Source: an uncultured Clostridia bacterium (lineage in GTDB: Bacteria; Bacillota; Clostridia; Christensenellales; Borkfalkiaceae). Taken from it: a stretch of 50,993 nucleotides of DNA. The stretch is from contig CALVWN010000031.1 in the NCBI GenBank assembly GCA_944367415.1, forward strand, positions 1 through 50,993, read 5' to 3'. The notes under the pieces are model-generated. The model made no database searches. It was not told the origin of the DNA and worked only from the letters and a program-made list of their open reading frames with translations. Made by a program: the position numbers and the translations under genes. Below are positions 29,528 to 49,672 of the stretch, one piece after another. Each line of letters opens with the position of its first letter. Position 1 is the first letter of the stretch.

Positions 29528-29582
29528 GCCGGCAAAAATGCGGCTTTTTTGCGCGAATTCGCGATTTTTTTGCGACTGCCGA

Positions 29583-29610
29583 TTGACATTTCGTCCGTCT
29601 TTACTATAAT
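29583..29610 (+). promoter_or_regulatory. Promoter of the Gx-transporter/rnf operon (leaderless first gene)
   Basis: TTGACA (29583-29588), 16 bp, TATAAT (29605-29610); the ATG at 29618 begins 7 nt later. No other promoter is visible before rnfC, so this probably drives the whole Rnf operon. Confidence 0.85.
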
Positions 29611-29617
29611 AGAAAGC

Positions 29618-30166
29618 ATGAACGATCGGAAAAAACCGCCGACGGCGAAAAAAATCGCCCTGCTCGGCATCCTTGCGGGGCTTGGACTTGTGGCATTTCT
29701 GCTCGAGAGCCTCATCCCCATCCCCTTTCTTCCGGGCGCGAAACTCGGCTTCGCGAACATCTTTTCCATGCTCGCCATGCTCTGGTACGGTCTGCCCGAA
29801 GCGCTTGCCGTCGTTCTTGTCCGCACGCTGCTCGGCAGCCTGTTTGCGGGGAATGTCTCCATGCTGCTCTATTCTCTGACAGCAGGCGTCGTCTCCGCGT
29901 GCGTCTCGCGGCTGCTGCTCTTCGCGCTTCCGCACGTGAGCTTTCTCTGCATCAGCGTCGCGGGCGCCGTCGTACACAATCTCGTGCAGCTGCTCGTCTA
30001 CTGCGGTCTGACGGGCACCATGCTGCTCTTTGTCTATTCGCCCTATCTCTGTCTCATGGGCATGGGAGCGGGCGTCGTCATCGGGCTTGTCGTGACGGGC
30101 ACAATCAAGGCACTTCCCGCGCGTGTTTTTGCGCGGCAATCCCTTCCGAAGGAGGAAAACAAGTGA
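29618..30166 (+). CDS. Gx transporter family membrane protein
   Basis: 182 residues, about five or six membrane segments. After a basic start (MNDRKKPPTAKK) come LLGILAGLGLVAFLLESLIP, PGAKLGFANIFSMLAMLWYG, and SLFAGNVSMLLYSLTAGVVSA, the pattern of the Gx transporter / ECF-S-like family often annotated as heptaprenyl diphosphate synthase component I. Its genes commonly precede rnf or thiamine/flavin-related genes in Clostridia; the role is not settled (a vitamin or small-molecule uptake component is possible). The stop overlaps the GTG start of rnfC, so it is the first cistron of the Rnf operon. Confidence 0.85.
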   Translation: MNDRKKPPTAKKIALLGILAGLGLVAFLLESLIPIPFLPGAKLGFANIFSMLAMLWYGLPEALAVVLVRTLLGSLFAGNVSMLLYSLTAGVVSACVSRLLLFALPHVSFLCISVAGAVVHNLVQLLVYCGLTGTMLLFVYSPYLCLMGMGAGVVIGLVVTGTIKALPARVFARQSLPKEENK

Positions 30167-31449
30167 TCGTAAAACCCAGGGCATTCTCCCGCGGCATCCA
30201 TATCGCGGGGCACAAATCGCCCACCGAGCATCTGCCGGCAGAACGGCTCCCCGCCCCTTCCGAGCTGGTGCTCCCGCTTTCGCAGAGCGTCGGCGCACCC
30301 GCAACGCCCGTCGTGACGGTCGGTCAGACCATCCGCCGCGGCGAATGCATCGCGACGCGCTCGGGCGCCGTCTCCGCCGATCTCCATGCGAGCATGGCGG
30401 GCGAAGTGACCTTCATCGGCCCCCGACCGGACGGACGGGGCGGCATGACACCCTGCATCGTCATCGCGCCGAGCGCCGCGCGGGAGGACGCCTTTCTCGC
30501 GCCCCTTCATGACCCTTCGCCCGAGGAGATCGTTGCGCGCATCGGGGAATGCGGCATCGTCGGCATGGGCGGCGCGGGCTTCCCGACGCAGGTAAAGCTC
30601 ACGCCCCCCGCCCCCGTCGACACGCTCATCCTGAACGGCGCGGAGTGCGAACCTTACCTGACCTGCGACGACGTACTCATGCAGACGAAGTCCGAGGAGA
30701 TCGTACGCGGCGCAAAGTACCTCGCAAAGGCACTCGGCGTGTCGCGCGTCCTCATCGCCATCGAGAAAAACAAGCCCGAGGCGATCGGAAAGTTCTTTGA
30801 GACCGATCTCGAAGTCGTCGTGCTCAAGAAACAGTACCCGATGGGCGCGGAAAAGCAGCTCATCTACTGCTGCACGGGAAGAAAGGTGCCGCTCGGCAAG
30901 CTCCCCGCAAACGTCGGCGTCATCGTGCAGAACGTCGCCACGGCGTTTGCCGTCTGCGAGGCGGTGGAACAGGGAAAGCCGCTCATCGAGCGCATTGTTA
31001 CGGTGTCGGGCGGCGGGATCGCACAGCCCAAAAACCTCATCTGTCCCGTCGGCGCCCCCCTCTCCGCACTCGCCGAGGCGTGCGGCGGCGAGCAGAATGC
31101 CGTCAAGCTGGTGGCGGGCGGCCCCATGACGGGCGCGGCGCTCACGGGGGAAGAGGCAGTCGTCACCAAGACGACGGGCGGATTCCTCTTTCTGACGCGC
31201 GAGGAGACGAACGCGGACGAGCCGACCCCCTGCATCAACTGCGGGCGGTGCGCAGACGCCTGCCCCATGAAGCTCATGCCCATGCAGACGGAATTTTATA
31301 CCAATGCGAAGGAATATGAAAATGCCGCAAAGTACGGCGGCGTGCTCGCCTGCATCGAGTGCGGCGTGTGCAGTTATGTCTGCCCCGCCCGCCGTCCGCT
31401 CGCACAGGCGATCAAGACCGCAAAGGCGGAATTGAGGAGGAAATCATGA
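30163..31449 (+). CDS. rnfC: Rnf complex subunit RnfC
   Basis: 428 residues from a GTG at 30163 with GGAGG 7 nt upstream; the longer open frame is a shadow of the previous gene. Peripheral NADH/FMN subunit of the ferredoxin:NAD oxidoreductase. Visible are GGAGFPTQVKL (NADH/FMN region), LNGAECEPYLTCDD, the SLBB-type region, and two 4Fe-4S motifs near the C-terminus, CINCGRCADACP and CIECGVCSYVCP. The order C-D-G-E-A-B is the usual Clostridia/acetogen order. The stop overlaps the rnfD start by 4 nt. Confidence 0.96.
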   Translation: MIVKPRAFSRGIHIAGHKSPTEHLPAERLPAPSELVLPLSQSVGAPATPVVTVGQTIRRGECIATRSGAVSADLHASMAGEVTFIGPRPDGRGGMTPCIVIAPSAAREDAFLAPLHDPSPEEIVARIGECGIVGMGGAGFPTQVKLTPPAPVDTLILNGAECEPYLTCDDVLMQTKSEEIVRGAKYLAKALGVSRVLIAIEKNKPEAIGKFFETDLEVVVLKKQYPMGAEKQLIYCCTGRKVPLGKLPANVGVIVQNVATAFAVCEAVEQGKPLIERIVTVSGGGIAQPKNLICPVGAPLSALAEACGGEQNAVKLVAGGPMTGAALTGEEAVVTKTTGGFLFLTREETNADEPTPCINCGRCADACPMKLMPMQTEFYTNAKEYENAAKYGGVLACIECGVCSYVCPARRPLAQAIKTAKAELRRKS

Positions 31450-32447
31450 AAATTCTTTCCACGGCTCCGCACATCAAGACACGGCGCACCACAAGGAGCA
31501 TCATGCTCGACGTGCTCATCGCGCTGCTCCCCGCATCAATCGCGGGCATCGTCTATTTCGGCTGGCAGGCGGCAGTCATCATCGTCATCTCCCTCGCCGC
31601 CGCCGTACTCACCGAATTTGTCTGGTATCTGATCGAACATAAAGTCTGGCGCGACGCCAGAGAGACCGTGCGCGCGTGGGCTGCGCAGTTCGACTGCACC
31701 TCCCTCGTCACGGGGCTTTTGCTCGCCCTCTGTTTGCCGGCACACATCGACGGATGGTATATGCCGCTGCTCGGCAGCATCTTTGCCGTCGGCGTCGTCA
31801 AGATGCTCTTCGGCGGCACGGGCAAAAACATCGTCAATCCTGCGATCGCGGGGCGCATCTTCCTGTTCATCTCCTTTACGGCGATGACCGTCTACCCCGC
31901 CGCCAACTTCGGCCCGCTCGGGGAGGTCTCCCTCGATCGGCTTCAGACGGGCGCGACCACGCTCACGAGCGGACTGCAGGGAGGCGAGATGCTCTCGAAC
32001 CTCGATCTCTTCCTCGGAACGGGCGTGGCGGGCTGCATCGGAGAGACGTGCAAACTCGCCCTCCTCGTCGGATTTGTCTATCTTTGCGTGCGCGGCGTCG
32101 TCAAGTGGTATCTGCCCCTTCTCTATATTGCCGTGACGGGGCTGTTCGCCGTGGCGCTCGAAGGGTTTGACTTCACCTGGTTCCTGCCCTCCGTCCTTTC
32201 GGGCGGGCTCATCCTCGGCGCCTGCTTCATGGCGACCGACTATGTGACCACACCGAAATCCAAACTCGGCAACATCATCTACTTCGTGGCGCTCGGGCTT
32301 CTGACGGCAGGGCTGAGAAAGACGACGGGCATCGAGGTCGTCTCCTTCTGTATTCTGCTCATGAACTTCACCGTGTTCCTCATCGACCTTGCCATCAAGC
32401 CCCGCCCCTTCGGGTATGTCCGCAGCAAGAAGGAGGCGAAAAAATGA
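31446..32447 (+). CDS. rnfD: Rnf complex subunit RnfD (flavin-binding membrane protein)
   Basis: 333 residues, about eight membrane segments. Conserved GTGKNIVNPAIAGRIFL and the flavinylation motif TGAT at residues 168-171 (in LDRLQTGATTLTSG), where ApbE attaches FMN to a Thr. SVLSGGLILGACFMATDYVTTP near the C-terminus is also family-typical. RnfD carries electrons within the membrane part and takes part in ion pumping. It overlaps rnfC and rnfG by 4 nt each. Its intact flavin site contrasts with the altered RnfG. Confidence 0.96.
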   Translation: MKILSTAPHIKTRRTTRSIMLDVLIALLPASIAGIVYFGWQAAVIIVISLAAAVLTEFVWYLIEHKVWRDARETVRAWAAQFDCTSLVTGLLLALCLPAHIDGWYMPLLGSIFAVGVVKMLFGGTGKNIVNPAIAGRIFLFISFTAMTVYPAANFGPLGEVSLDRLQTGATTLTSGLQGGEMLSNLDLFLGTGVAGCIGETCKLALLVGFVYLCVRGVVKWYLPLLYIAVTGLFAVALEGFDFTWFLPSVLSGGLILGACFMATDYVTTPKSKLGNIIYFVALGLLTAGLRKTTGIEVVSFCILLMNFTVFLIDLAIKPRPFGYVRSKKEAKK

Positions 32448-34990
32448 CAGTCAAACAATTCTTTAAGAGCAACGCCTTCAGGAGCCTTGCCGTGCTCATT
32501 GCGATCGTGCTGGTCGCGGGCGCTCTGCTCGCCATCTTCAACGACATTTTATATATCTCCGACGAGGAGCGGCTCAACCGCACCCTCTCCAAGATCTACG
32601 GCGAAAACGTGACCGCCGAGGAAGTCACCCTCGACGAGGATGCAAAAACCACCCCCTACGGCACCGTGAACTTCGTCTATCACATTCAGGAGGACGGCAA
32701 CTACCTCTTCCAGACGACGGGCACGGGCGGCTACCAGGGCGGCACGGTCACCGTCTGGACGGTCGTCGCCGTCACGGGCACGCGGGAAGCGGGCGATCTT
32801 GCGATCACGGGCATCGACAAAGTGGTGTATGAGTCCAACACCAGCCAGACGCTGATGGCGAACCTCACCGATTCCTTCTATGCCTTCTATACGGAGCACG
32901 ACGACCTCGTCGCCGACGGCGAATATTTCACTTCCGTCAAGGGCGGAACGGACGACCTCAACAACGTCGTCGCAAACGCGACGATGTCCTCGGGTGCCGT
33001 CACCAACGCGGTCAACGCCGCGCTCTACTGCTGCCGCACGCAGTTCGTTTCCCAGTCCGGGCAGCCCGAGCCGCCCTCCGACGAAGTGCTCGAGGAGATC
33101 TTCGGCGAGCGCGTTGCGCTCACCTCCGTTGCCGTCACCGACGCGCAGACCCCTTACGGCACCGTCGATGAAGTCTGGCTTACGTCCGGGAAAAGCGCCT
33201 ATCTCTTCAAGACGACGGGCACGGGCGGCTTCCAGGGCGGCAGCGTCACCCTCTGGACGGCGGTCACCTTTGAAGGCACGGGCAGCGAGATGAAGCTCAC
33301 GGGCATTGAGAAGGTCGTCTATCTCTCCAACATCAGCCAGTCCTGGATGAACAAGATCCCCGACTCCTACTATGACAATTTTGCCGACAAAGACGACCTC
33401 GTCGCAGCGGGCGGCTACTTCACCGCAAACCCCGACGGCTCGGGCGATCTCAACAATGTCCAGACGGGCGTGAGCCTTGCGTCCAATGCGTCCTGCAATG
33501 CGGTCAACGCGGCGCTCTGCTATTTCCGCACCGTCCTGCTCGGAGAGGAAAGCGGCGAAGAGCCGGCTCCCCTCGATCCCGTCGAAGAATTCTACGGCGA
33601 AAGAGTAAATTACACGCAGCTGACCATTGACGAGCTGTACACTTCCAACGAGTACGGCGCCGTCGACGCGGTCTACTATGTCGCGGAGAAGAACGAAGTG
33701 CTCATCCTCTCCACGGGCACGGGCGGATTCCAAGGCGGAACGGTCACCCTCTGGACGTCGCTCACCGTCACGGGTTCTTTGGAGGACGGGCTCACCCTCA
33801 CGGGCATCGGCAAAGTCGTCTACGACTCCGATGTAGATCAGTCCTGGATGAACAAGATCCCCGACTCCTTCTTTGCAAACTTTGCCGACAAGGACGATCT
33901 CGTCGCGGCGGGCGGCTACTTCACCGCAAACCCCGACGGCTCGGGCGATCTCAACAATGTTGAGACGGGCGTGAGCAAGGCGTCGAACGCCGCCTGCAAT
34001 GCGGTCAACGCGGCACTCTGCTATTTCCGCCTGCGACTCACCGACCCCGTGGAGCGCTTCTACGGCGAAGAAGTCGACTATACGCAGTTGACCCTCGGCG
34101 CGTCCTGCACCACAAACGAATACGGCACCGTCGATGCGATCTATTATGTCGCGGAGAAGAACGAAGTGCTCATCCTTGCCACGGGCACGGGCGGATTCCG
34201 GAACGGCACCGTCACTCTTTGGACGTCGCTCACCGCGACCGGTTCTTTGGAAGGCGGGCTCACCCTCACGGGCATCGGCAAAGTCGTCTATGACTCCAAT
34301 ATCGATCAGTCCTGGATGAATAAGATCCCCGACTCCTTCTATGATAACTTTGCCGACAAGGACGACCTCGTCGCAGCGGGCGAATATTTCACCGCAAACC
34401 CCGATACGGGCAATCTCAATAATCTTGAGACGGGCGTGAGCCTTGCGTCGAACGCCGCCTGCAATGCGGTCAACGCGGCACTCTGCTGCTTCCGTATGTG
34501 GCTCACCGACCCGGTCGACCGCTTCTACGGCGAGCAGGTCGACAGCACGCAGCTGACGCTCGACGCAGCCGCGCTCGGCAATGAATACGGCACCGTCGAA
34601 GCGGTCTACTACATTGCGGAAAAGAACGAGCTCCTCGTCCTCTCCACGGGCACGGGCGGATTCCGGAACGGCACCGTCACCCTTTGGACGTCGCTCACCG
34701 TCACGGGTTCTTTGGAGGACGGGCTCACGCTCACGGGCATCGGAAAAGTTGTCTTTGCAAGCGAAACGTCGCAGTCCTGGATGGACAAGATCCCCGATTC
34801 CTACTATGACAATTTTGCCGACAAGGACGACCTCGTCGCGGCGGGCGGCTACTTCACCGCAAACCCCGACGGCACGGGCGATCTCAACAATGTCCAGACG
34901 GGCGTGAGCAAGGCGTCGAACGCCGCCTGCAACGCGGTCAACGCGGCGCTCTGTTATTTCAGAGAAGTTCTTACGGGAGGTAACGCATGA
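32444..34990 (+). CDS. rnfG: Highly expanded RnfG-like protein, five FMN_bind-like repeats (848 aa)
   Basis: In the rnfG position, overlapping rnfD and rnfE by 4 nt, but 848 residues against about 200 for normal RnfG. One N-terminal membrane segment (about 12-34) is followed by five repeats, roughly 40-200, 212-363, 377-530, 533-685 and 688-841, each with TGTGGxxxGTVTLWT, TGIxKVVYxS, SQSWMNKIPDSxY, KDDLVAAGGYFTA and CNAVNAAL. This is the FMN_bind fold order. The flavinylation motif of RnfG (SGATxT) is replaced by TGVSLAS or TGVSKAS in repeats 2-5 (341, 508, 663, 819) and by ANATMSS in repeat 1 (177). A pair of cysteines eight residues apart occurs in repeats 2, 3, 4 and 5. It should sit outside the membrane. 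Whether it binds FMN, and how, is unknown. Confidence 0.85.
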   Translation: MTVKQFFKSNAFRSLAVLIAIVLVAGALLAIFNDILYISDEERLNRTLSKIYGENVTAEEVTLDEDAKTTPYGTVNFVYHIQEDGNYLFQTTGTGGYQGGTVTVWTVVAVTGTREAGDLAITGIDKVVYESNTSQTLMANLTDSFYAFYTEHDDLVADGEYFTSVKGGTDDLNNVVANATMSSGAVTNAVNAALYCCRTQFVSQSGQPEPPSDEVLEEIFGERVALTSVAVTDAQTPYGTVDEVWLTSGKSAYLFKTTGTGGFQGGSVTLWTAVTFEGTGSEMKLTGIEKVVYLSNISQSWMNKIPDSYYDNFADKDDLVAAGGYFTANPDGSGDLNNVQTGVSLASNASCNAVNAALCYFRTVLLGEESGEEPAPLDPVEEFYGERVNYTQLTIDELYTSNEYGAVDAVYYVAEKNEVLILSTGTGGFQGGTVTLWTSLTVTGSLEDGLTLTGIGKVVYDSDVDQSWMNKIPDSFFANFADKDDLVAAGGYFTANPDGSGDLNNVETGVSKASNAACNAVNAALCYFRLRLTDPVERFYGEEVDYTQLTLGASCTTNEYGTVDAIYYVAEKNEVLILATGTGGFRNGTVTLWTSLTATGSLEGGLTLTGIGKVVYDSNIDQSWMNKIPDSFYDNFADKDDLVAAGEYFTANPDTGNLNNLETGVSLASNAACNAVNAALCCFRMWLTDPVDRFYGEQVDSTQLTLDAAALGNEYGTVEAVYYIAEKNELLVLSTGTGGFRNGTVTLWTSLTVTGSLEDGLTLTGIGKVVFASETSQSWMDKIPDSYYDNFADKDDLVAAGGYFTANPDGTGDLNNVQTGVSKASNAACNAVNAALCYFREVLTGGNA
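33572..34966 (+). repeat. Three near-identical tandem coding repeats (RnfG repeats 3-5)
   Basis: Units starting near 33572, 34040 and 34505 (about 465 bp each) are very similar at DNA level, including silent positions (for example the segments for FADKDDLVAAG and GYFTANPD). This points to recent tandem duplication or gene conversion; repeats 1 and 2 are more diverged. Confidence 0.85.
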
Positions 34991-35667
34991 ACGCCAAAAA
35001 ATACGGCAAGATCGCCTATGACGGTCTGATCACCAACAACGCGACCTTCAAGCTCGTTCTCGGCACCTGTGCGACGCTCGGAATGTCCACCTCTGCCGTC
35101 AACAGCTTCGGCATGGGGCTTTCCGTCACCGTCGTGCTGCTTCTGAGCAACGTGCTCATCTCTCTTCTGCGCAAGGTCATCCCCAACACGGTGCGCATCC
35201 CCGCCTTCATCGTCATCATCGCGACGATGGTCACGCTGCTGCGCATGGTGCTGGAAAAGTACATCCCCGACCTCTACGACTCGATGGGCGTGTTTTTGCC
35301 GCTCATCGTCGTCAACTGCGTCATTTTGGGACGCGCGGAAGCGTTTGCGAGCAAAAACCCCGTGCTCGACAGCGCCATCGACGGCGTGGCGACAGGACTG
35401 GGGCTGACGTTTGCGCTGACGCTCATCGGCATCATCCGTGAGTTCCTCGGAAACGGCAGCTTCTTCGGCATCCATGTGATGGACTTCAAGATCGGGTTCT
35501 TCACCAATTCGGCGGGCGCGTTCTTTGTGTACGGCATCTGCATCGCCCTCTTTGTGCTCATCACCAATCAGGCAGAAAAAGCGCGCCGCGCAAAGCAGGC
35601 ACGGATGCTGCGGATGCCCTCCGGACAGGAGCCTCTCCCCGCGCCCGACGCTGAGGAGGTGAAATAA
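34987..35667 (+). CDS. rnfE: Rnf complex subunit RnfE
   Basis: 226 residues with about six membrane segments. GLITNNATFKLVLGTCATLGMSTSA at the N-terminus and the central LIVVNCVILGRAEAFASKN (Cys in the membrane) and GIIREFLGNGSFFG are conserved in RnfE/NqrD. It forms the membrane core with RnfA, holding a 2Fe-2S cluster between paired cysteines. An extra basic and acidic C-terminal tail (about 195-226) is present. It overlaps rnfG by 4 nt and rnfA by 1 nt. Confidence 0.95.
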   Translation: MNAKKYGKIAYDGLITNNATFKLVLGTCATLGMSTSAVNSFGMGLSVTVVLLLSNVLISLLRKVIPNTVRIPAFIVIIATMVTLLRMVLEKYIPDLYDSMGVFLPLIVVNCVILGRAEAFASKNPVLDSAIDGVATGLGLTFALTLIGIIREFLGNGSFFGIHVMDFKIGFFTNSAGAFFVYGICIALFVLITNQAEKARRAKQARMLRMPSGQEPLPAPDAEEVK

Positions 35668-36281
35668 TGGCAGCGACCATCCTTCTCATCATCATCTCCG
35701 CCGTCTTTTCGCAGAACTTCATCCTCGTGAAGTTCCTCGGCATCTGCCCCTTCCTCGGCGTCTCCAAGAAGGTGAACAGCGCCGTCTCGATGGGCATTGC
35801 GGTCACCCTCGTCATGGTGCTCGCAACGCTCGTGACGTGGCCGCTCTACTTCTACATCATGGTGCCGCTCAACATCGAGTACCTCGAGATCATCTTCTTC
35901 ATCTTCGTCATCGCGGCGCTCGTGCAGATGCTGGAGAAGATCATTGAAAAGCTCTCCCCCGCCCTCTACCGCTCGATGGGCATCTATCTCCCCCTCATCA
36001 CGACCAACTGCGCGATTCTGGGCGTTGCGGAACTTCTCCTTGTCAACGACCTCTCGGGCGTCGTGACGGGGATCGAAGCGGGCATCTCCATGAATCTCGG
36101 CTTCGCCCTCTTATATGCGCTGTTCGCGGGCATCGGATTTACCCTTGCGATGGTGCTGATGGGCGGCGTGCGCGAAAAGATGGAAAAACTTCCCGTCGCA
36201 AAGTGCATGAAGGGATTCCCCATCACGATGGTCGCGGCGGCGTTCATGGCAATGGCGTTCTACGTCTTTGCTCTGTTGTAA
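35667..36281 (+). CDS. rnfA: Rnf complex subunit RnfA
   Basis: 204 residues, about six membrane segments. AVFSQNFILVKFLGICPFLGVSKK and the central LPLITTNCAILGVAELLL (Cys) are diagnostic for RnfA/NqrE; GGVREKMEKL follows. Partner of RnfE in the membrane core. GGAGG lies just upstream in the end of rnfE. It is followed by AGGAGG and rnfB 10 bp later. Confidence 0.96.
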   Translation: MAATILLIIISAVFSQNFILVKFLGICPFLGVSKKVNSAVSMGIAVTLVMVLATLVTWPLYFYIMVPLNIEYLEIIFFIFVIAALVQMLEKIIEKLSPALYRSMGIYLPLITTNCAILGVAELLLVNDLSGVVTGIEAGISMNLGFALLYALFAGIGFTLAMVLMGGVREKMEKLPVAKCMKGFPITMVAAAFMAMAFYVFALL

Positions 36282-36291
36282 GGAGGCAGCT

Positions 36292-37110
36292 ATGCAAACT
36301 TGTATTCTCGCGCCCGTCAACTGGGCGCAGGTGGGCATCGTGCTCGGTATCTTCGTTGCGATCGCCCTCATCCTCACCGTCTGCATCCTGCTCGTCGCGA
36401 AATTCTGCAAGACGAACGCCGACGAGAAGGTGGAATCCATCCTCTCGCACCTTGCGGGCGCCAACTGCGGCGGCTGCGGCTGTACGGGATGCGCGGGCTT
36501 CGCCGAAAAACTCGCCAAGGGCGAGGCAAAGCTCACCGACTGTCATGTGACCGAGGCGAGCGAAAAGGCGGCGATCGCAGAGTACCTCGGCATCCCTTTT
36601 ACCGCATCCAAGCCGACGGTCAGCGTGTGCTGCTGTTCGGGCGGAACGCACGCAAAGGACGCCTTCGCGTACAGCGGCGCACATGACTGCGCCGAGGAAA
36701 ACAAGCTCGCGGGCGGGCACAAGGTCTGCAAGTACGGCTGCCTCGGCGACGGAAACTGCACGCGCGTGTGCCCCGAGAACGCCATCTCGCTGCCCGACGC
36801 GTGCGCGAACGTCAACCCCGACCGCTGCATTTCATGCGGAGCGTGCATCCTGACCTGTCCCAAGCAGCTCTTCATGCGCATTCCCGCCGATGCGAAAGTG
36901 TACATCGCCTGCTCGTCGCACGACAGAGGCAAAGCGGTGATGGACGCGTGTGAGTTCGGCTGCATCGCCTGCGGAAAGTGCGTGCGCACCTGCCCGCAGG
37001 GAGCGATCACGATGAAGGACAACCTGCCCTTCATCGACTATGACAAGTGCGTCAACTGCGGAAAATGTGCCGAGGCGTGCCCCCGCCACACCATCAAAGT
37101 GCGCTATTGA
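36292..37110 (+). CDS. rnfB: Rnf complex subunit RnfB (iron-sulfur protein)
   Basis: 272 residues from the ATG at 36292, 5 nt after AGGAGG. A single N-terminal membrane segment (about 10-38), then the 4Fe-4S motif GANCGGCGCTGCAGFAEKL, and several ferredoxin-type motifs: CKYGCLGDGNCTRVCP, CISCGACILTCP, CIACGKCVRTCP and CVNCGKCAEACP. RnfB receives electrons from ferredoxin and passes them to the complex. A strong bidirectional terminator follows, closing the operon. Confidence 0.96.
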   Translation: MQTCILAPVNWAQVGIVLGIFVAIALILTVCILLVAKFCKTNADEKVESILSHLAGANCGGCGCTGCAGFAEKLAKGEAKLTDCHVTEASEKAAIAEYLGIPFTASKPTVSVCCCSGGTHAKDAFAYSGAHDCAEENKLAGGHKVCKYGCLGDGNCTRVCPENAISLPDACANVNPDRCISCGACILTCPKQLFMRIPADAKVYIACSSHDRGKAVMDACEFGCIACGKCVRTCPQGAITMKDNLPFIDYDKCVNCGKCAEACPRHTIKVRY

Positions 37111-37148: not shown

Positions 37149-37397
37149 TTATTTGCGGAACAATCCCTTCTTTTCATACGGCTCCGACGTGACGGAGAGC
37201 ACGCGGTAGCCCGTCTTTTCGATGCCCGCGCGGATGACGTTCGCAAGGCTTTCGTCCTCCAGGAGGACGACCGTCTCTCCCTTGCGGTGGGAGGAAGTCA
37301 CCTTTTTGACCTCCGCGCTCCTGCGCACGACGTCGTTGACGTGTGTCTCGCACATTCCGCAGCGCATCCCGTCGATCCTGAATGTCAGTTTAACCAT
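37149..37397 (-). CDS. HMA (CopZ-like) heavy-metal-associated protein (82 aa)
   Basis: Ferredoxin-like HMA fold: VKLTFRIDGMRCGMCETHVNDVVR with the GMxCxxC metal-binding motif (C13, C16), then VLLEDESLANVIRAGIEKTGYRVLSV. Usual copper chaperone size plus a short basic tail. It overlaps the upstream ABC gene by 8 bp, so it is co-translated with a CydDC-type exporter; that link suggests handling of metals, haem or thiols, but the ligand cannot be read. It ends at the terminator shared with rnf. Confidence 0.88.
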   Translation of the reverse strand: MVKLTFRIDGMRCGMCETHVNDVVRRSAEVKKVTSSHRKGETVVLLEDESLANVIRAGIEKTGYRVLSVTSEPYEKKGLFRK

Positions 37398-39081
37398 TGG
37401 CGTGTTCCTCCGTCAGTCTGCCCTTCTCCGCATGGTAGATGCGGTCGGCGATCGCCATGGTCGACTCGCGATGCGAGACAAGAATGATGCTGCGCTTTTT
37501 CTTCTGTTCGGCGAGCGAGCGAAGGATGATGCCCTCGTTGATGGAGTCGACATTGCTCGTCGGCTCGTCGAGCAGGATGAGTTCGCTTCCCTTGAAGAAT
37601 GCCCGCGCAAGACCGATGCGCTGTTTCTCTCCGGCGGAGAGGTTGTCGCCCATCGCGCCGACGCGCGTTTCGTATCCCTCGGGCAGCGTCATGATGAAGT
37701 CATGCACGGACGCCATGCGACAGGCGGTCTCAAGCTCCTCCTGCGTCGCATCGGGCTTGGCGATGCGCAGATTGTCCGCTATGCTCTCGTCAAAGAGATA
37801 GGTGGATTGCGACACCATCGTCACATTGTCGAGCAGGTTGTCGGAATCCACATCGTCGACGTCGACGCCGTTATAGAGGATGGCGCCCTCCTTCTTCTCC
37901 CAGAAGCGGAGCAGGAGCTTCAGAAGCGTGGATTTCCCGCAGCCGCTCGCGCCGACGATACCGACGATCTCCCCCTTTTCCGCGTGCATGCACGCATCCT
38001 GCAGAACGGGCGCGTTCTCCTCATAGGAGAAGCCGACGTGCTCGACGTTCAGATGATCGTAGACGATCTTTTTGCCGTTTTTGACGGGCGTGACGGCGGG
38101 CTTTTCTTCGAGCAGATTGAGCACGCGGTCGCCGCTCGCAAAAGTCTGCGTGAGATTTCCGGGCAGTGCGGAGATGGCGAGCACCGGCCCGAAGCTGCCG
38201 AACACGGTCACGATCCCGACGATCATCGCGCCGATCGAGAGAAGGTCGTTGAGCACGAGCACGATGCCGACGGCGAGCGCCGCAATGGTGAAGATGGAGA
38301 CGAACATCTCCGTGAACGCGGAGGAACGCGCGATCTGGTGCTTGACCCCTTTGGTGACGTCGAGCAGCTCCTGCGAGCGGCGGTCGACCTCCCGTTCGCG
38401 TTCTTTGCCCGCGTTGTTGAGCACGATGTCCTTGACGCCCTTGATGCTGTCGAGGAAGTAGGCATTGAAGGAGGAGAACTGCGCGCGGTACTTCACGCCG
38501 CCCGCCTTCATGCGCGAGGAATAGACGGGCGGCAGGATGACGCCGATCGTCAGATATCCCAAAAGGGCGACGAGGGCGAGATACCATCCCACGACGAACC
38601 CGACGAACAAGAAGACGGCGAGCGAGACGATGACGGCAATGCAGACGGGCGAGATGGTATGCGCATAGAACACTTCAAGCGTCTCGATGTCCGACGTGAT
38701 CATGGCGATGATGCCGCCCTTCTTTTTGGTCTCCAGCTTTGCCGGGCAGAGCACGCGCAGCGCGCCGAAGATCTTGTCGCGCAGCACGGCGAGGAGCCGG
38801 AAGGCGATGTAGTGATTGCAATACTGTTCGACGTAGCGCAGAACGCCGCGCAGCGCCCCGAGCCCCACCGTAAGACCGATGATCAGCCCCCAGCTCATCG
38901 AGACCGCCTCGCCGAGCGCCTTTGCGATGCCGAACGCACCGAACACGGTGACGCCCATCGCGGCGACAAAGCCGACCGAGCCGCCGAGCACGGCGACGAG
39001 CATGACATAGGCAAGGCTCCCGACCAGCACGATGAGGCTTGCCATGATCTTCAGACCGCTTCTGCGAAGTTTTTCCTTCAT
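37390..39081 (-). CDS. CydC-like ABC exporter half (563 aa)
   Basis: N-terminal six-helix ABC exporter domain (about residues 10-310), then the ATPase: GASGCGKSTLLKLLLRF (Walker A), LSAGEKQRIGLARAF (signature) and LILLDEPTSNVDSINEG (Walker B), and VSHRESTMAIADRIYH (H-loop). It pairs with the upstream CydD-like half by a 4-nt overlap. CydDC exports cysteine and glutathione and supports cytochrome assembly in other bacteria; many Firmicutes carry such pairs with unknown cargo. No cydAB genes occur in the window, so the name is by similarity only. An HMA protein follows. Confidence 0.88.
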   Translation of the reverse strand: MKEKLRRSGLKIMASLIVLVGSLAYVMLVAVLGGSVGFVAAMGVTVFGAFGIAKALGEAVSMSWGLIIGLTVGLGALRGVLRYVEQYCNHYIAFRLLAVLRDKIFGALRVLCPAKLETKKKGGIIAMITSDIETLEVFYAHTISPVCIAVIVSLAVFLFVGFVVGWYLALVALLGYLTIGVILPPVYSSRMKAGGVKYRAQFSSFNAYFLDSIKGVKDIVLNNAGKEREREVDRRSQELLDVTKGVKHQIARSSAFTEMFVSIFTIAALAVGIVLVLNDLLSIGAMIVGIVTVFGSFGPVLAISALPGNLTQTFASGDRVLNLLEEKPAVTPVKNGKKIVYDHLNVEHVGFSYEENAPVLQDACMHAEKGEIVGIVGASGCGKSTLLKLLLRFWEKKEGAILYNGVDVDDVDSDNLLDNVTMVSQSTYLFDESIADNLRIAKPDATQEELETACRMASVHDFIMTLPEGYETRVGAMGDNLSAGEKQRIGLARAFFKGSELILLDEPTSNVDSINEGIILRSLAEQKKKRSIILVSHRESTMAIADRIYHAEKGRLTEEHANG

Positions 39082-40826
39082 GCGAGCACCTCCTTGTACC
39101 CCTCTTCGAGCGCCTTCTGCGTGGAATACAGGTGCGCATAGCCGCCCTGCATCGCCATGAGTTCGGCGTGCGTGCCGCGTTCTTTGATCTCCCCGTCCTC
39201 CATGTAATAGATGGTATCGGCAGGAACGACGTTTTCGAGGCGGTGAGAGATGATGATGACGTTCTTGCGGCGGCTCATCTCGCGCACGTTGCGCATGATG
39301 ACCGCTTCGCTGTCGATGTCGATGTTGCTCGTCGCCTCGTCGAAGATGTAGATGTCCTTGTCGGCGACGAGATTGACGGCGAGCGCCATGCGCTGTTTCT
39401 GACCGCCCGAGATGTTGGAGGCGTCCTCCGTGACCACCTTATCAAGCCCCCCGTTCTCGCGGACAAAGTCCGCAAGGTTGACCTTTTCGAGTGCCGCCCA
39501 GATCTCCTCGTCGGTGGCGTCATGCTTGGCAAGTTCGAAGTTGGCGCGCACGCTGTCGTTGAACAGATAGGAGTTGTAGGAGACCACCGCGACGCGGGAA
39601 TAGTAGCTCTCGCGCGAGAGCGCCTCGAGGGGGTCGCCCCCCGCCGTCACACGCCCCGTCTTGGGTCGGAGCGCGCCGATGAGCAGCCCCACGATGGTGG
39701 ATTTTCCGCAGCCGCTCGCGCCGACGATCGCCGACATTTTCCCCGCCGGGAAAGAAAGGCTCGCATGGCGCAGCACGTCGCGCTTCCCGTCATAGGAGAA
39801 GGAGACATCCTCGAGCGCGAGGTCGGTACCGCGGCACGCGCCCTCTCCCCAGACAGGCTCCTCCGCCTTCAGAAAGCCGCTGATCTTCTTGCCCGCGCTC
39901 GCGCCGTTCATCGCGACGTGGAAGGCAGAGCCGAGCGCGCGCAGCGGCAGGAAAAATTCCACCGCGACGAGTACCAGAAAGAGCGCGACGGCGGGCAGGA
40001 GCGCCGTTCCGAACGTCCCCGCAAGGTTGGCGATGACCACCGCGATCCCCGCGCCCGCGCCGCAGTAGGCGACAAAATCCATGATCATCGTGCTCATGAG
40101 CTGCATGACGAGCACCTTCATCGTGATCTTGCGGAACTCCTCCGAATTCTCGTTCATCTTCTTGTGGCGCGCGCCGTCCGCCTTATAGATCTTCAGCTCG
40201 TTGAGGCCCTGTACGCTGTCCAGAAATCCGTCGCCCATCGTCGTGTATTTTCCCCAATACTTTGCAAAGACGCGCTTTGCGTAGCGGGAGACCGCAATGA
40301 TGGAGAGCGGAATGAGCGGCACGCAGCACAAAAGAACGAGCGCGACGCGCCAATCCAGCCAGACACAGATGAGAAAGAGGATGAAGGGCGCGATCATCGA
40401 ATAGAAAAACTGCGGCAGATAGCTCGAATAGTAGGTATCCAGCTGTTCGATGCCCTCCATCGAGATCTGCGTCAGCCCCGCCATGTTCATCCCGTCCGCG
40501 CTCCTGGCGCCCAGGCGCAGGATCTTATCGTACATACGCGCGCGCAGATCTTTTTTTACCTTGCGCCCGAGCAGATCGCGCAGATCCCCCGTGACGCGCG
40601 TTGCAGCATAGCGCAGTGCGATCGCCGCGACGGCAACGATCGCCGGGTACACGAATGCGATCGCCTCCCCCTCTCCCTGCGTCAGGCGGATGGTGATGTC
40701 CACCGCCCAGCAGATGCTCGCCGTGACGGCGAGGTTGGCAAACAGTCCGACGATCATCACGACGACGGTCAGCCATACGAATTTTTTGTTTGCGCCGAGC
40801 AGCGTAAACAGTTCCTTGTCAAGCAT
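39078..40826 (-). CDS. CydD-like ABC exporter half (582 aa)
   Basis: Start at 40826 (MLDKELFTLL). The open frame upstream runs through a structured leader and is not taken as coding. Six membrane segments at about 18-310, with DLRDLLGRKVKKDLRARMYDKIL and MEGIEQLDTYYSSYLPQFFYS in the loops typical of the CydD/half-ABC group; ATPase motifs GASGCGKSTIVGLLIG, ISGGQKQRMALAVNLVADKDIYIFDEATSNID and ISHRLENVVPAD. First gene of a three-gene operon with the CydC-like half and the HMA protein. Confidence 0.88.
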   Translation of the reverse strand: MLDKELFTLLGANKKFVWLTVVVMIVGLFANLAVTASICWAVDITIRLTQGEGEAIAFVYPAIVAVAAIALRYAATRVTGDLRDLLGRKVKKDLRARMYDKILRLGARSADGMNMAGLTQISMEGIEQLDTYYSSYLPQFFYSMIAPFILFLICVWLDWRVALVLLCCVPLIPLSIIAVSRYAKRVFAKYWGKYTTMGDGFLDSVQGLNELKIYKADGARHKKMNENSEEFRKITMKVLVMQLMSTMIMDFVAYCGAGAGIAVVIANLAGTFGTALLPAVALFLVLVAVEFFLPLRALGSAFHVAMNGASAGKKISGFLKAEEPVWGEGACRGTDLALEDVSFSYDGKRDVLRHASLSFPAGKMSAIVGASGCGKSTIVGLLIGALRPKTGRVTAGGDPLEALSRESYYSRVAVVSYNSYLFNDSVRANFELAKHDATDEEIWAALEKVNLADFVRENGGLDKVVTEDASNISGGQKQRMALAVNLVADKDIYIFDEATSNIDIDSEAVIMRNVREMSRRKNVIIISHRLENVVPADTIYYMEDGEIKERGTHAELMAMQGGYAHLYSTQKALEEGYKEVLA

Positions 40827-40966
40827 TCCGAATGCCTCCGGCTCCTTTTGCATAAAAGTTCGCCATGCCGAACACATGGTGTTTTTTGACGGCGCCCGCC
40901 GCGGAAGTTCGCAATGCCGAACTGCCGGGCAAAGAAAAATGTCCGCACGGGCGCCGAACGCAGGAT
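40827..40966 (-). promoter_or_regulatory. Leader of the cydDC-like operon with paired inverted repeats
   Basis: Two 16-bp elements, GTTCG-N6-CGAAC at 40858-40873 and 40907-40922, have the same arms and nearly the same centre (CCATGC against CAATGC) and are 49 bp apart. In the mRNA each would make a 5-bp hairpin. A longer pairing, CGGCGCCC (40890-40897) with GGGCGCCG (40949-40956), would enclose the upstream one. These could be operator sites for a repressor or an RNA switch controlling the exporter. I recognise no known riboswitch. Confidence 0.65.
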
Positions 40967-40995
40967 ATTGTATCACAGACGGCGTACAAAGTCAA
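40967..40995 (-). promoter_or_regulatory. Promoter of the cydDC-like/HMA operon
   Basis: Minus strand TTGACT (40990-40995), 17 bp, TACAAT (40967-40972), with an extended TGA. It leaves a leader of about 135 nt containing the paired inverted repeats. Confidence 0.8.
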
Positions 40996-41359: not shown

Positions 41360-44300
41360 ATGAAAAAAGCAACGTGGAACAAGCGGCTTTCGACGCTCAT
41401 CTCATCCATCGCGATGGTCTGCTGTCTGTTTGCCGCCGCCATTCTGACGGCATGCAACAACGAACAGCCTGTCGCACAGTCGGGCGAAGAAGCGGGCGTC
41501 TATTACTACGACGACCGCGGCGAGCAGTCGCTGCTCACGCTCGGAGAGAGCCTTACCTATACGCTCGCCATCGGCGGCGATGCATTCAGCGGCAGCTATA
41601 CGCTCGAAGGCGAGACGCTCACGCTGACGCAGACGGACGGGAAGACGATGACCGCCTCCCTCTCCGGAGACGTCATCACGCTCACCTATGAAGACACACA
41701 GATGCGCTTCCTCCGGAAAGTGTACTATACCGTCACGTTTGACAGCGCGGGCGGCAGCAACGTGGAGAGCGTCAGCGTGCTCAACGGAAAGAGCATCCAG
41801 AAGCCCGCATCCGATCCCGTGCGCGACGGCTTTGTCTTTCTCGGATGGTACACCGACGAGGCATACACCGCGCCCTATCTGTTCGGCGCGCAGGCGCTGA
41901 CGGGCGACACCACGCTTTATGCGCGTTGGGCGCAGCCCGCCGAAAACGGCATCGAATACACGATCTCCTATGACCTCGGATATGACGGCGAGACGATCGC
42001 CCCGACGCAGACGGTCGGCGGGAAGCTCTACTCCCCCGCCCTTCCCGCCGCGCGCGAGGGATATTCCTTCGTCGGCTGGTGGGTGAGCATGGAGAACAAG
42101 GCAGACCGCCTCTCCTACCGCTTTGAGGCGCCCTCCGCTTCGGCGGAAGGCACGCTGTTTGACGCCGACACGACGCTCTTTGCCGTCTGGCAGGCGGAGG
42201 ACGCGCAGGTCGCCTCGCCCGCCGTCAGCGTCTCGCAGCAGGCGATCACATGGGATTCCGTCGGCGCCGCCGCCTATCTCATCTCCGTGACCGCGCCAGA
42301 CGGCACGCCGCTCTACTCCGAGCAGCGCACGACGAGCACCACCTTCCCCGTCACCTTTGACGAGGCGGGCGCCTACCGCGTGCAGGTGACGGCGATCAAC
42401 GCGGGCGGCACACAGGTTGCCGAACCCACCGTCCGTTACTATATGAATCATGCGCTCGCGCGCGTATCGGGCGTGCGCGTCATCGAGCCGAACGCGCTCG
42501 TCTTCCGCGGCGTCGAGCATGCCGAGAAGTATCTCATCACCATCGACTGCGGCGACGATGCTCACGTTCACACGTTGTTCGACAACGGCACGTCTCTCTA
42601 CTACAATTTCTCCAACTGCGAAATGCAGGAGGGCGGCATCGTCTTTACCATCCGCGCGGTCGCGGACGGCTATGCCGCCTCCGAGACGACCTTCGTCTTT
42701 GACCGCACGCTCGGCGAAACGGGCGCGCTCTCCGTCACGGACGACGTCTTCACCTGGAACGCCGTTCCCGGCGCGACCTATTACACGGTGCGCGCGGGCG
42801 AGGCGGAGTACGACGTGTTCGGAACGCAGTTCTCCCTCAAGACGCTCCCTGCCGGTAACTACACCCTCTCGGTCGTGCCGAGAGCGAAGGGATTCAACTC
42901 CCCCGCCGCCGCGCAGATCGCCTATTCCAAGGAAACGCCCGCCCTTCCCGCCGAGATCGGTCTGCTCGACATGACGCTGTCGTGGTCGAAAGCGGAGGAA
43001 GGCGCAGTCTATACCCTTCTCGTCAACGGTCAAGAGATCGCCGTCGAGGCGGGCGCGCGCTCCTATGACCTCACCGATCTGTTCACCTGGACGGACGGCG
43101 CCGACTACACGCTGCAGCTTCGGGTGGAGAAGAACGGCGCGATCGCCGTGAGCGACGTCTTCACCTTCCGCTGCAACGCACTCGACGAGAACGTCGTCTA
43201 TGACGGCGGCGTCCTCTCCTGGAAGCCCGTCGCCGGCGCACAGAGATACGAGATCCGCCTCAACGGCGACGACGCGAGCATCATCACGGTGGAGGACGGC
43301 AGCGCGGAATACCTCCTTCCCTCGCTTGCACGCGCGGGCGAGAACACCATCGAGGTGCGCTTCGTCAACGGCAATTATACCTCCGAATGGGCGCAGACGA
43401 GCGTGTACGCGCACGCGATCGTCTTTGATACCCGCGGCGGAAGCGCGGTCGATCCCCTCTACAAGGCGGTCGGCGACCGCGTGGAGCTTCCCCTTCCCGC
43501 CGCGAAGGAAGGCTATGACTTTGCGGCGTGGTACAACACGCCGAACGGCCCCGAGAGCAACGGCGCAAAGTATGACGAACCCTTCTTTGTCGCCTCGGGC
43601 GAACTTGTTCTCTACGCATACTATACCCCCAAGGCGATCACGGTCACGCTGAGCGGCGCGGAAGGGATGGAGAGCGAGACGGTGTACTACGGGGAAGACT
43701 TCACGCTGCCCGTACCGCAGTCGGACAATGCGACGAGCGCATTCGGCGGCTGGTTCAGCGCGCCCTACGGCGCAGGCGTCGCCTATACGGATGCCTACGG
43801 CAACTCCGTCGCCCCTTGGGACATCGCCGAGGACGGCGTGACGCTGTACGCCTTCTGGGTGGACGCGGTGCTCAATTACACCGCCATCGGCAGTGGCTAT
43901 GCCGTGAGCGCGGGCGCCCGCATCAACCTCGTCTCCTCGATCACCATTCCCGCCGAGTACAACGGCGCGAAGGTCACGCAGATCACGGGCAGCGCGTTTG
44001 CAAACTGCGCTTCCCTTCAGAAGATCGATCTTCCCGACACCATCGAACTGATCGCGACGGCGACGGCGTTCACGGGCTGCACCGCCCTCGAAGCGGTCAA
44101 CGTCTACGACGCAGGCGCAACTTCGCCCCGCTATTCCTCGCAGGACGGCGTGCTGTTCGACAGCGGAAGCGCAGACGCGCCGCACGCGCTGCGCCCCGCC
44201 TATATCCCCTCTGCAAAGACGGGCACCTATCGTATTCCCGACGGCGTGGACGTCATTCCGCGCGCCGCGTTTGCGGGCAGCATGATCGAAAAGGTCATCA

Positions 44301-47300
44301 TCCCCGTGAGCGTCTCCGCGATCGAGGCGGAGGCATTCGCAGACTGCGCGAACCTCTCCTCCGTCGTCTTTGAGAGCCTCGGCGCAAGGGCGTCCGGGCT
44401 GACCATCGGCGAGAGGGCGTTCATGAACTGCGAACTGCTCACCTCCATCACCCTTCCCGCACGTCTTACGCAGATCGCGCTCGACAAGTACGTCCTGCGC
44501 GGAAACAGCTTCAACTCCGTCTCCGAGCTGACCGAGAACGCGCCCGACGCCTTCCTCGGCTGCACTTCGCTCGCGTCCGTCGACGTGGCGCAGAACGCCT
44601 CGGCGGCGTACAGCTCCAAAGACGGCGTGCTGCTCTCGGACAGCGGCAGAACGCTCGCCTACTTCCCGGCAGACAAGAGCACGGAAGGCTTTGTCTTCCC
44701 CGCAACGGTCAGAACGATCGCCGCGGGCGCCTTCCTCGGCTGCTACCTTTCGGATGCGCTCGTCATTCCGGCGTCCGTCACGCAGATCGGCGACTTTGCA
44801 TTCGCCGACACCTCCATCACCGATCTCACCTTCGAAAGCGACGGCATCGGTCTGAGCGCCGTCACGGTCGGGAACTACGCGTTCTACGGATGCGACGATC
44901 TGGAGACGCTCACCTTTGCGGAGGGCAGCAACGTGACCGAGATCGGCAACGGCGCCTTCAAGGGCTGCAGCTATCTCGAATCGCTCGTCCTTCCCGCCTC
45001 GATGACATTCATCGGCGACGAGGCGTTCGCCGAATGCGGTACCGACGCGTGGTCGTTCAGCGTCACGCTGCCCGAGAGCGACAAGCAGCTCTCTCTCGGC
45101 AACGGCGTATTCTCCGGCTGCGAGATCGGAACGCTCAATATCCCCGCGAATGTCGCCGTCTCCTCCGACTTCTTCAGCGGCATCGACGCCGACAGGATCG
45201 TCGTGGATCCCGGCAACCCCTACATCGAATCCTCCGTGGACGGCGGCGTGCTCTATCTCAAAGGCAGCAACAAGACGCTCCTTCTGTACCTCTCCGAGGA
45301 GGAAACTTTCGTCGTTCCCGACGACGTGACCGCGATCGCGGCATACGCATTCAGCGGCAATTCCTCTGTCGAAAACATCACCATCCCCGCCTCCGTCACC
45401 TCCATCGGCGCACACGCCTTTGACGGATGCCACTATCTGGAATCGGTGACCTTTGCGGGTGCGCCGCAGTCGCTCTCGATCGGCGAATATGCCTTCTACG
45501 GCACCGCGCTCCGTGCGCTCGATCTGCCCGAATGCCCCGTCACGATCGGCGACTATGCCTTTGCGTCCATCGAATATTACGACTACGAGACGTATGACGA
45601 CGCAAGCATCAGGTCTCTCGATCTGGGCGGCACGACTTCCATCGGCAACTATGCCTTCTATCGGACGGGCACCAAACTTGACGTCGTCATCCCCGCCTCC
45701 GTCACCTCCATCGGCGCACACGCCTTCGAGGGATACGGCTGGTCGATGCTCACCGATTACATTCAGAGCCTCACGTTTGCGGAGGGCAGCGCGCTGCAGA
45801 CCATCGGCGCCTATGCGTTCTACAAGGCAAACCTCACCTCCTTCAACGTGCCCGCAAGCGTGACCTCCATCGGCGCATATGCCTTTGCGGACATCAATAC
45901 CCTCACTTCCTTCACCTTTGAAGAGGGCACGGCGCCCCTCTCCTTCGGCACGGCGTATGACGATCCGGAAGAGGGCTATGTGACGGGCCGCGTCCTCGAC
46001 GGTACGCCCATCACCGCCGTACACTTCCCCGGAAGAATGACGGTGCTCTGCGCACAGGCGTTCTACTACAACGACACGGTGGAGGAAGTCACCTTCGGCG
46101 ATCAGTACGAAGGCTTCACGGCAAGCAGGCTGACGACCATCGGCGAGAGCGCCTTCCACTATGCGGATGCGCTGGAGACCATCGTCATCCCCGCAAGCAT
46201 CACGAACACCGACGTCATCGCCATCGGCAACAACGCCTTCTACGGCAGCGGGCTCACCTCCGTCACCTTTGAGGCGGGCGGAAGCGGCACCGTCACCATC
46301 GGCGAGAGCGCGTTCTATTCCTGCAACGGGCTGACGGAGATCACCCTTCCCGCAACGCTTGGCGACTTCACCGCAAACGGCGTGACCATTCCCGCGCTCG
46401 CAAACGGCACGGGCGTGTTCCCCGAACTCTACGACGACGAACGCGGTCTCGCTGCCGTCAACGTCGCGGAGGGCAACGCGCTCTATGCCTCCAAGGACGG
46501 CATTCTCTATACGAGCGACTTCAGACAGCTCGTCTACTGCCCGCCCGCAAAGACGGGCAGCGTGGAGGTCGACGCGCGCGCAGAGCGCATCGGCGCCAAT
46601 GCATTCCGCGGCTGTGCGCTGCTCGAGCGCATCACCTTTGCGGCAGGCAGCGCGTGCGTCGAGATCGGCGCGGGCGCCTTCAGCGGATGCGTCCGACTTT
46701 CCGACATCGTGCTGCCCGATACCGTCCAGGTCATCGGGACGGACGCGTTCCTCAGCTGCGACGCACTCACCTCCTTCCGCGTTCCCGACGCGCTCAACTC
46801 CTTCAGCATCGAGATGCTCGGCTGCGAGAATCTGACCGAGCTGGTCGTCGGCGAAAACAACCGCAACTACTCCTCTGCGGACGGCGTGCTGTTCAGCAAG
46901 GACGGCGCGACACTCCTCTATTATCTGCCTACCCGCACCGATGTCTCGTACAGCGTTCCCGCCGGCACGGTGGAGATCGCCGAGGAGGCATTCGCGGGCA
47001 ACACCTCGCTGGAGCGCGTGAACTTCCCCGCCTCCCTCGAGCACATCGGCGTCAACGCCTTCAACGGCTGCACGGCGCTCTCCGAAGTGACCTTTGCAGA
47101 CGGCACCGCTCAGCTCATCTTCGGTAACAACGCCTTCTACCGCACGGCACTCGAGCGCATCGAACTGCCCGCACGCGTCGGCGCGCTCGGCGACAGCGTC
47201 TTTGAAAACACAGATCTGAGCGAGATCGTCTTTGCGGAGGGCAGCACGCTCACTTCGCTCGGCGACCGCGTCTTTGCGAACACCGAACTCGTCAGCGTCA

Positions 47301-49657: not shown

Positions 49658-49672
49658 TGCAACAGGAATTTT

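Follow-up and report, generated by a model that had tools for sequence, protein, structure and literature searches.

An RnfG with five tandem copies of its own domain in the rnf operon of an uncultured Clostridia bacterium

The window analyzed here is a stretch of 50,993 nucleotides (contig CALVWN010000031.1 of assembly GCA_944367415.1) from an uncultured Clostridia bacterium of the family Borkfalkiaceae, whose draft genome is 74% complete and comprises 86 contigs. An initial annotation, made from the sequence alone, had reported that the rnfG slot of an otherwise normal rnf operon is occupied by an 848-residue protein with five repeats. Searches with Pfam and NCBIfam models upheld this description and gave the gene order rnfC, rnfD, expanded rnfG, rnfE, rnfA, rnfB. 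The NCBIfam cut-offs were passed by rnfC, rnfD, and rnfE; rnfA and rnfB scored below theirs and were identified via Pfam. The frame of the expanded rnfG is open throughout, without an internal stop codon; its ATG overlaps the stop codon of rnfD (32447), and its own stop codon overlaps the ATG of rnfE (34987). The translation of rnfD retains the motif TGAT, as reported before.

The positions of the five repeats are listed in Table 1. The strings quoted in the initial annotation, ANATMSS in repeat 1 and TGVS[LK]AS in repeats 2 to 5, were found in the translation. Protein identity among the five repeats ranges from 45% to 82%, with values of 45% to 47% for repeat 1 compared to the others and of 80% to 82% among repeats 3 to 5, whose DNA identity is 80% to 85%. 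Between repeats 3 to 5, synonymous divergence (dS) is 0.43 to 0.57 and the ratio of nonsynonymous to synonymous divergence (dN/dS) is 0.25 to 0.28, showing purifying selection. Despite a dS of about 0.5 between repeats 3 to 5, the codons for TGVS are the same in repeats 2 to 5 (ACG GGC GTG AGC). Repeats 1 and 2 are each followed by a linker containing Pro, Gly, and Glu, and repeats 3 to 5 abut directly. The last helix of repeats 2 to 5 also carries two invariant cysteines eight residues apart (518 and 526 in repeat 3). By homology to RnfG, the domains probably lie outside the cytosol. Pfam detected no cytochrome in the expanded RnfG, which has no multihaem part.

The expanded protein is an RnfG, and its domains form a family homologous to RnfG. 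This was established with an alignment of 58 rows, comprising the five repeats of the window and 53 first domains of relatives; the window locus itself (L002), weak or ambiguous loci (L017 to L020), and second matches of the same frames (L021 to L023) were left out. Searched against the PDB, the profile of this family matched RnfG of Clostridium tetanomorphum (7zc6_G) with an E value of 1.2e-6 and that of Acetobacterium woodii (9eri_G) with an E value of 0.004. Canonical clostridial RnfGs were collected as 30 loci from 85 matching genomes out of 118; a filter requiring the string G[AST][TS]xT kept 23 loci, which biases counts of the acceptor and +2 columns in this set, and 20 of the 23 were aligned (all but L146, L149, and L153). 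An hhalign comparison of the family with these 20 proteins gave a probability of 98.4 and an E value of 4.7e-15, and repeats 2 to 5 alone gave a probability of 82.5 and an E value of 9.9e-6. At an E value of 0.01 or better, the FMN_bind model PF04205 matched 23 and the rnfG model TIGR01947 matched 25 of the 58 family members. For structure prediction and the order-wide search, we used a second alignment of 41 rows (the window repeats and L024 to L062 except L040, L050, and L059). The model of the full-length protein showed a membrane helix and five alpha-beta units, with a mean predicted local distance difference test (pLDDT) score of 72.3 and a predicted template modelling score of 0.39, and its first PDB match was again 7zc6_G (E value 1.6e-3, probability 1.00).

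The initial annotation had placed an alanine (a serine in repeat 1) at the position to which flavin mononucleotide (FMN) is attached, and this assignment did not hold. The motif of the flavin transferase ApbE is given in a review as D-x-x-[ST]-G-A-[ST], with FMN bound to the final residue (PMC12052999). In the HMMER alignment, the last motif residue of the family coincides in 7zc6 with the threonine of TGATITS and in 9eri with that of TGSTITS, two residues ahead of the position assigned before. Counted back from the chain ends, the aligned threonines are residues 164 and 185, respectively, and Thr164 (PMC9588780) and Thr185 (PMC11889175) are the FMN-bearing residues stated for the solved RnfGs. 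The acceptor column thus aligned is occupied by serine or threonine in all five repeats of the window (Table 1). In the full-length model the four serines open predicted helices (344-365, 511-532, 666-687, and 822-843), and Thr180 lies in a stretch with pLDDT below 50, three residues ahead of helix 183-201. Likewise, Thr164 of C. tetanomorphum RnfG is described as the first residue of its last helix (PMC9588780). A model of repeat 3 alone, which was more confident (pLDDT 90.3) than the full-length model, also had the last helix begin at Ser511.

Over the 58 rows, the acceptor column contains serine in 36 cases, threonine in 20, and lysine in 2, i.e., a hydroxyl residue in 56; both lysines belong to proteins with an insertion (L039 and L040). 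The alanine flagged before stands at acceptor+2, where the family has serine in 41, threonine in 12, and alanine in 5 rows, the last being repeats 2 to 5 and the single RnfG domain of a sister genome, G015. By count, acceptor+2 corresponds to Thr231 of Vibrio harveyi NqrC, which is reported to form a hydrogen bond with flavin N3, the acceptor there being Thr229 (PMC4348036). At the site of NVQTGVSKASNA in repeat 5, G015 has NVQTGATGASNA, and alanine at +2 thus also stands beside an intact TGAT. Alanine as the acceptor was ruled out by the alignment with 7zc6 and 9eri, by G015, and by the motif published in PMC12052999.

In these alignments, the flavinylation motif is altered rather than lost. 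In repeats 2 to 5, valine replaces the Ala and serine the Thr of the motif; in repeat 1, asparagine replaces the Gly. The earlier statement that the motif is incomplete stands in that none of the five repeats carries the full motif D-x-x-[ST]-G-A-[ST], and falls in that the acceptor hydroxyl is retained. The aspartate of the motif is absent from all 58 family rows and from 18 of the 20 canonical clostridial RnfGs, and its absence is therefore not special to the expanded RnfG. This aspartate has been called essential (PMC10722498); according to the review PMC12052999, which cites Bertsova et al. 2019, replacing Asp with Ala has a minor effect, replacing Thr with Ala abolishes flavinylation, and about 50% flavinylation is left after Ala to Val or after Gly to Ala. 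For Thr to Ser, the review reports a decrease in flavinylation of 10% to 55%, with reference to Tong et al. 2021. Among these single changes, Ala to Val, Thr to Ser, and Asp to Ala reduce flavinylation but leave some of it.

In the genome of the window, a single ApbE match was found on another contig (L155, positions 1039-2271, minus strand; PF02424, E value 4.5e-50), with a leader that by eye resembles that of a lipoprotein. A NusG domain II protein (PF07009, above cut-off) adjoins this gene (contig 54, L155, positions 569-1081, minus strand). Across the genus, ApbE matched in 26 of the 30 genomes with an RnfG of this family and in 1 of the 73 without it; the Fisher P value of 4e-19 overstates the evidence, as related genomes are not independent. 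The sole ApbE-bearing genome without a matching RnfG, G061, has RnfC. Three of the four RnfG-bearing genomes without an ApbE match are 70% to 80% complete, and the fourth, G073, is 97% complete.

Related genomes also harbor enlarged RnfGs, as the initial annotation had suggested looking for. Repeat 3 matched in 30 of 103 genomes of the genus. Twenty-two of these have one RnfG domain (a lower bound for G082, whose gene lies at a contig end), and six combine an RnfG-type domain (G) with other flavin-type modules (C) in the arrangements GC (one genome), GCC (four), and GCCC (one). Two RnfG domains occur in one genome (G004) and five in one, that of the window. In the underlying listing of architectures, GG for L017 rests on a second match of 6 bits, and GGGG for L099 is the window locus in incomplete form. 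In the order, the domain profile matched 155 of 396 genomes, with more than three matches in the window genome only. The extra C-terminal modules, one to three per protein (L010, L012, L026, L031, L043, L060, and others), carry TGA[ST] strings and are mostly missed by Pfam; in a scan of four such proteins, the FMN_bind cut-off was passed by L010 and, owing to its first domain, by L026, with no FMN_bind match in L012 or L060.

In a tree of 33 rows with unsettled bootstrap, repeats 2 to 5 and the second repeat of G004 formed one group (support 100/98), next to which stood the only domain of G015 (99/98). The first half of the G015 domain resembles repeat 1 and the second half, with the motif TGAT, repeats 2 to 5, a pattern that could have arisen by recombination of an array that left a single domain.

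The remaining genes of the operon are included in Table 1. The RnfC_N domain starts at 30181, which places the true rnfC start shortly upstream of 30181; rnfD and rnfB start at internal ATG codons of longer open reading frames (ORFs), at 31359-32447 and 36268-37110, respectively. Immediately upstream of rnfC, a gene of the heptaprenyl diphosphate synthase component I family (PF07456) is located at 29549-30166 on the plus strand. Convergent with the rnf operon, two genes resembling the ATP-binding cassette exporter genes for CydC and CydD, below the NCBIfam cut-offs, occupy 37390-40976 on the minus strand, and 37149-37397 on the same strand encodes an 82-residue protein that resembles MerTP in its metal-binding part, with a score far under the cut-off. 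Farther downstream lies the gene for a 2765-residue BspA-type leucine-rich-repeat protein (41360-49657, plus strand; PF13306, E value 1.4e-241) with a leader that by eye is lipoprotein-like. Opposite this gene, an antisense ORF of 2759 open codons (41402-49681, minus strand) had no Pfam match at an E value of 1e-5.

Table 1. Positions of the expanded rnfG, its parts, and the other rnf genes in the window
Feature	Position	Strand	Description and evidence
Expanded rnfG	32444-34990	+	848 amino acids; membrane helix and five tandem RnfG-type domains; ORF, family profile, hhalign
N-terminal membrane helix (residues 10-36)	32471-32551	+	Predicted; low-confidence stretch of full-length model, hydrophobic sequence
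Repeat 1 (residues 33-205)	32540-33058	+	Motif NVVANAT; acceptor column Thr180 (32981-32983)
Repeat 2 (residues 214-366)	33083-33541	+	Motif NVQTGVS; acceptor column Ser344 (33473-33475)
Repeat 3 (residues 377-533)	33572-34042	+	Motif NVETGVS; acceptor column Ser511 (33974-33976)
Repeat 4 (residues 534-688)	34043-34507	+	Motif NLETGVS; acceptor column Ser666 (34439-34441)
Repeat 5 (residues 689-848)	34508-34987	+	Motif NVQTGVS; acceptor column Ser822 (34907-34909)
rnfC-holding ORF	29899-31449	+	TIGR01945, 473 bits (cut-off 246)
rnfD	31446-32447	+	PF03116; TIGR01946, 208.9 bits (cut-off 207.05); keeps TGAT
rnfE	34987-35667	+	PF02508; TIGR01948, 215.7 (cut-off 213.4)
rnfA	35667-36281	+	PF02508 above cut-off; best rnf model TIGR01943, 210.2, below cut-off (229.3)
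rnfB	36292-37110	+	FeS (PF04060) and Fer4 above cut-offs; NCBIfam rnfB models below theirs

Compared to known systems, the expanded RnfG shares with the single-domain RnfG and NqrC proteins (7zc6_G and 9eri_G) its place in an rnf operon, the N-terminal membrane helix, the profile homology, and the acceptor hydroxyl; it differs from them by its five domains, by TGVS or ANAT in place of [ST]GA[ST], and by the lack of ETPGLG. Multi-flavinylated RnfGs in RNF clusters have been described by Meheust et al. 2021 (PMC8238504), who noted a multihaem domain in a subset from Christensenellales and proposed a second electron path; Huang et al. 2024 (PMC11334425) presented beads-on-a-string models of multi-flavinylated proteins. 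As in the proteins described in these two papers, several flavin-type domains are joined in one presumably extracytosolic, Rnf-tied protein. In contrast to them, the array of the window is built by repeating the RnfG domain itself, which scores below the FMN_bind cut-off, its flavin sites are non-canonical, and a multihaem part is lacking. SaFMN3 and CbFMN4 (PMC10339131) likewise consist of tandem, highly similar domains and are reported to be flavinylated by ApbE with covalent FMN, but their domains are smaller and carry a GAT motif, and they are described as stand-alone proteins rather than Rnf subunits. The GC, GCC, and GCCC proteins of the genus have the same N-terminal RnfG-type domain as the window protein and extra modules with TGA[ST] strings; they add modules of type C, whereas the window protein repeats type G. 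Judged by title and abstract opening, none of the open-licence PMC papers retrieved describes a five-domain RnfG; supplementary tables may list the protein.

Taken together, the sequence data favor, with somewhat better than even odds, that the protein belongs to a divergent clostridial branch of RnfG and serves in an Rnf complex that is ordinary in other respects, and that tandem duplication raised the number of its flavin domains to five, most likely giving a shuttle extended by further flavin domains. RnfG is reported to move in order to carry an electron between RnfA/E and RnfD (PMC12174285, PMC11889175). In the mechanism we propose, ApbE would place FMN on most or all of the five repeats, perhaps incompletely, and repeat 1, which adjoins the membrane stalk, would most likely keep the usual swing between RnfA/E and RnfD. 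Repeats 2 to 5 might extend outward and hold further FMNs, as a short flavin chain or a store, that would allow electron transfer between Rnf and acceptors beyond the membrane.

Several observations weigh against this interpretation. The expanded RnfG scores below the curated cut-offs (14.5 bits with PF04205, cut-off 22; 16 bits with TIGR01947, cut-off 102). Searched as a single sequence against PDB sequences, it gave chance matches only, and a four-row profile of repeats 2 to 5 alone retrieved no RnfG among PDB chains. A Foldseek search of the PDB with the repeat 3 model returned nothing at an E value of 0.001 or lower, the best match being unrelated (E value 0.8), which counts against homology to RnfG. 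The fold evidence is accordingly mixed, with the full-length model pointing to RnfG first and the better model of repeat 3 to nothing related. The stretch ETPGLG, which lines the flavin pocket, is missing from all 58 family rows (searched as ETPG); in canonical clostridial RnfGs ET[PA]GLG is present in 20 of 20 rows, and the absence is a trait of the clade. Many family members have a [DE]SNxxQ[ST]-like stretch at this position. Around the conserved lysine near the FMN phosphate (K207 of Vibrio cholerae NqrC), the alignment with canonical RnfGs is loose. In repeats 2 to 5, Ala to Val and Thr to Ser, each of them weakening, occur together; the mutants in the review PMC12052999 are single changes, and the Gly to Asn change of repeat 1 is not among the mutants reported in that review. 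Regarding ApbE, G073 has an RnfG of the family but no ApbE match, and RnfD with its TGAT could alone explain the link between ApbE and RnfG, since ApbE may be kept for RnfD. Finally, the wire itself is inferred, as no outside electron acceptor is known.

Some of these observations could be read differently. It is possible, though we regard it as unlikely, that only repeat 1 works as an RnfG with one FMN and that repeats 2 to 5 have drifted from flavinylation to serve as a spacer or surface scaffold. The confinement of the motif valine to repeats 2 to 5 (and the misaligned L039 and L040), the confinement of the +2 alanine to repeats 2 to 5 and G015 in the 58-row alignment, and the failure of the repeat 3 fold search and the repeats 2 to 5 profile to find RnfG would fit such a drift. 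Yet the acceptor serine is kept in four of four copies with identical TGVS codons at a dS of about 0.5 (repeats 3 to 5), and the odder motif, with Asn for Gly, belongs to repeat 1. The latter feature would suit the converse arrangement, in which repeat 1 no longer carries flavin and acts as a membrane anchor only, while a distal repeat on a flexible linker shuttles. In both proteins of the genus with more than one RnfG domain, those of the window and of G004, asparagine takes the place of Gly in repeat 1 (ANAT and LNAT) and the next repeat keeps Gly, and the linkers after repeats 1 and 2 are of a kind that would suit such mobility. We consider this arrangement quite improbable, as repeat 1 keeps threonine at the acceptor column and lies nearest the stalk, which in A. 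woodii is reported to bear the mobile FMN domain (PMC11889175).

The suggestion in the initial annotation that flavin is bound in another way, e.g., noncovalently in a new pocket, could draw on the [DE]SNxxQ[ST]-like stretch in place of ETPGLG. It is not needed to explain the sequence, in which the acceptor hydroxyl is kept, and with ApbE present and apo-NqrC reported to bind free FMN only very weakly (PMC4348036), we deem it very improbable. The draft state of the genome could raise suspicion of an assembly artefact, a frameshift fusion, or a normal rnfG elsewhere, which we find scarcely credible. A false expansion by assembly is unlikely because the gene contains no direct exact repeat of 60 or more bases; the frame is single and open, the copies are at most 80% to 85% identical in DNA, dS between repeats 3 to 5 is 0.43 to 0.57, and G004 has a two-domain form. 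In the 74% complete genome, no second rnfG-like match was obtained with the domain profile or with PF04205 and TIGR01947, the latter two of which also miss the expanded RnfG itself.

The extended shuttle remains our preferred interpretation. The multi-center electron wire mentioned in the initial annotation is possible and comes close to the proposal made for multi-flavinylated RnfGs (PMC8238504). In its fullest form, which we put forward only tentatively and think doubtful, a five-flavin wire would have arisen from the copied shuttle domain, the distal copies having been tuned both at and beside the flavin site (Val-Ser for Ala-Thr, Ala for Thr at +2), and Rnf would exchange electrons with cell-surface acceptors as well as with nicotinamide adenine dinucleotide. 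The expanded RnfG is real and unusual, yet a variant of the multi-flavinylated kind already reported; what is new is that RnfG's own domain was copied to five, in a clade that scores below the FMN_bind and rnfG cut-offs and lacks ETPGLG. As this clade falls below the Pfam and NCBIfam cut-offs, surveys using those models may undercount such proteins. If the proposed interpretation is correct, a natural protein with five domains on one stalk, alongside forms with one and two domains elsewhere in its genus, would allow a direct test of whether multi-flavin chains conduct and whether electrons can leave the cell by way of Rnf.

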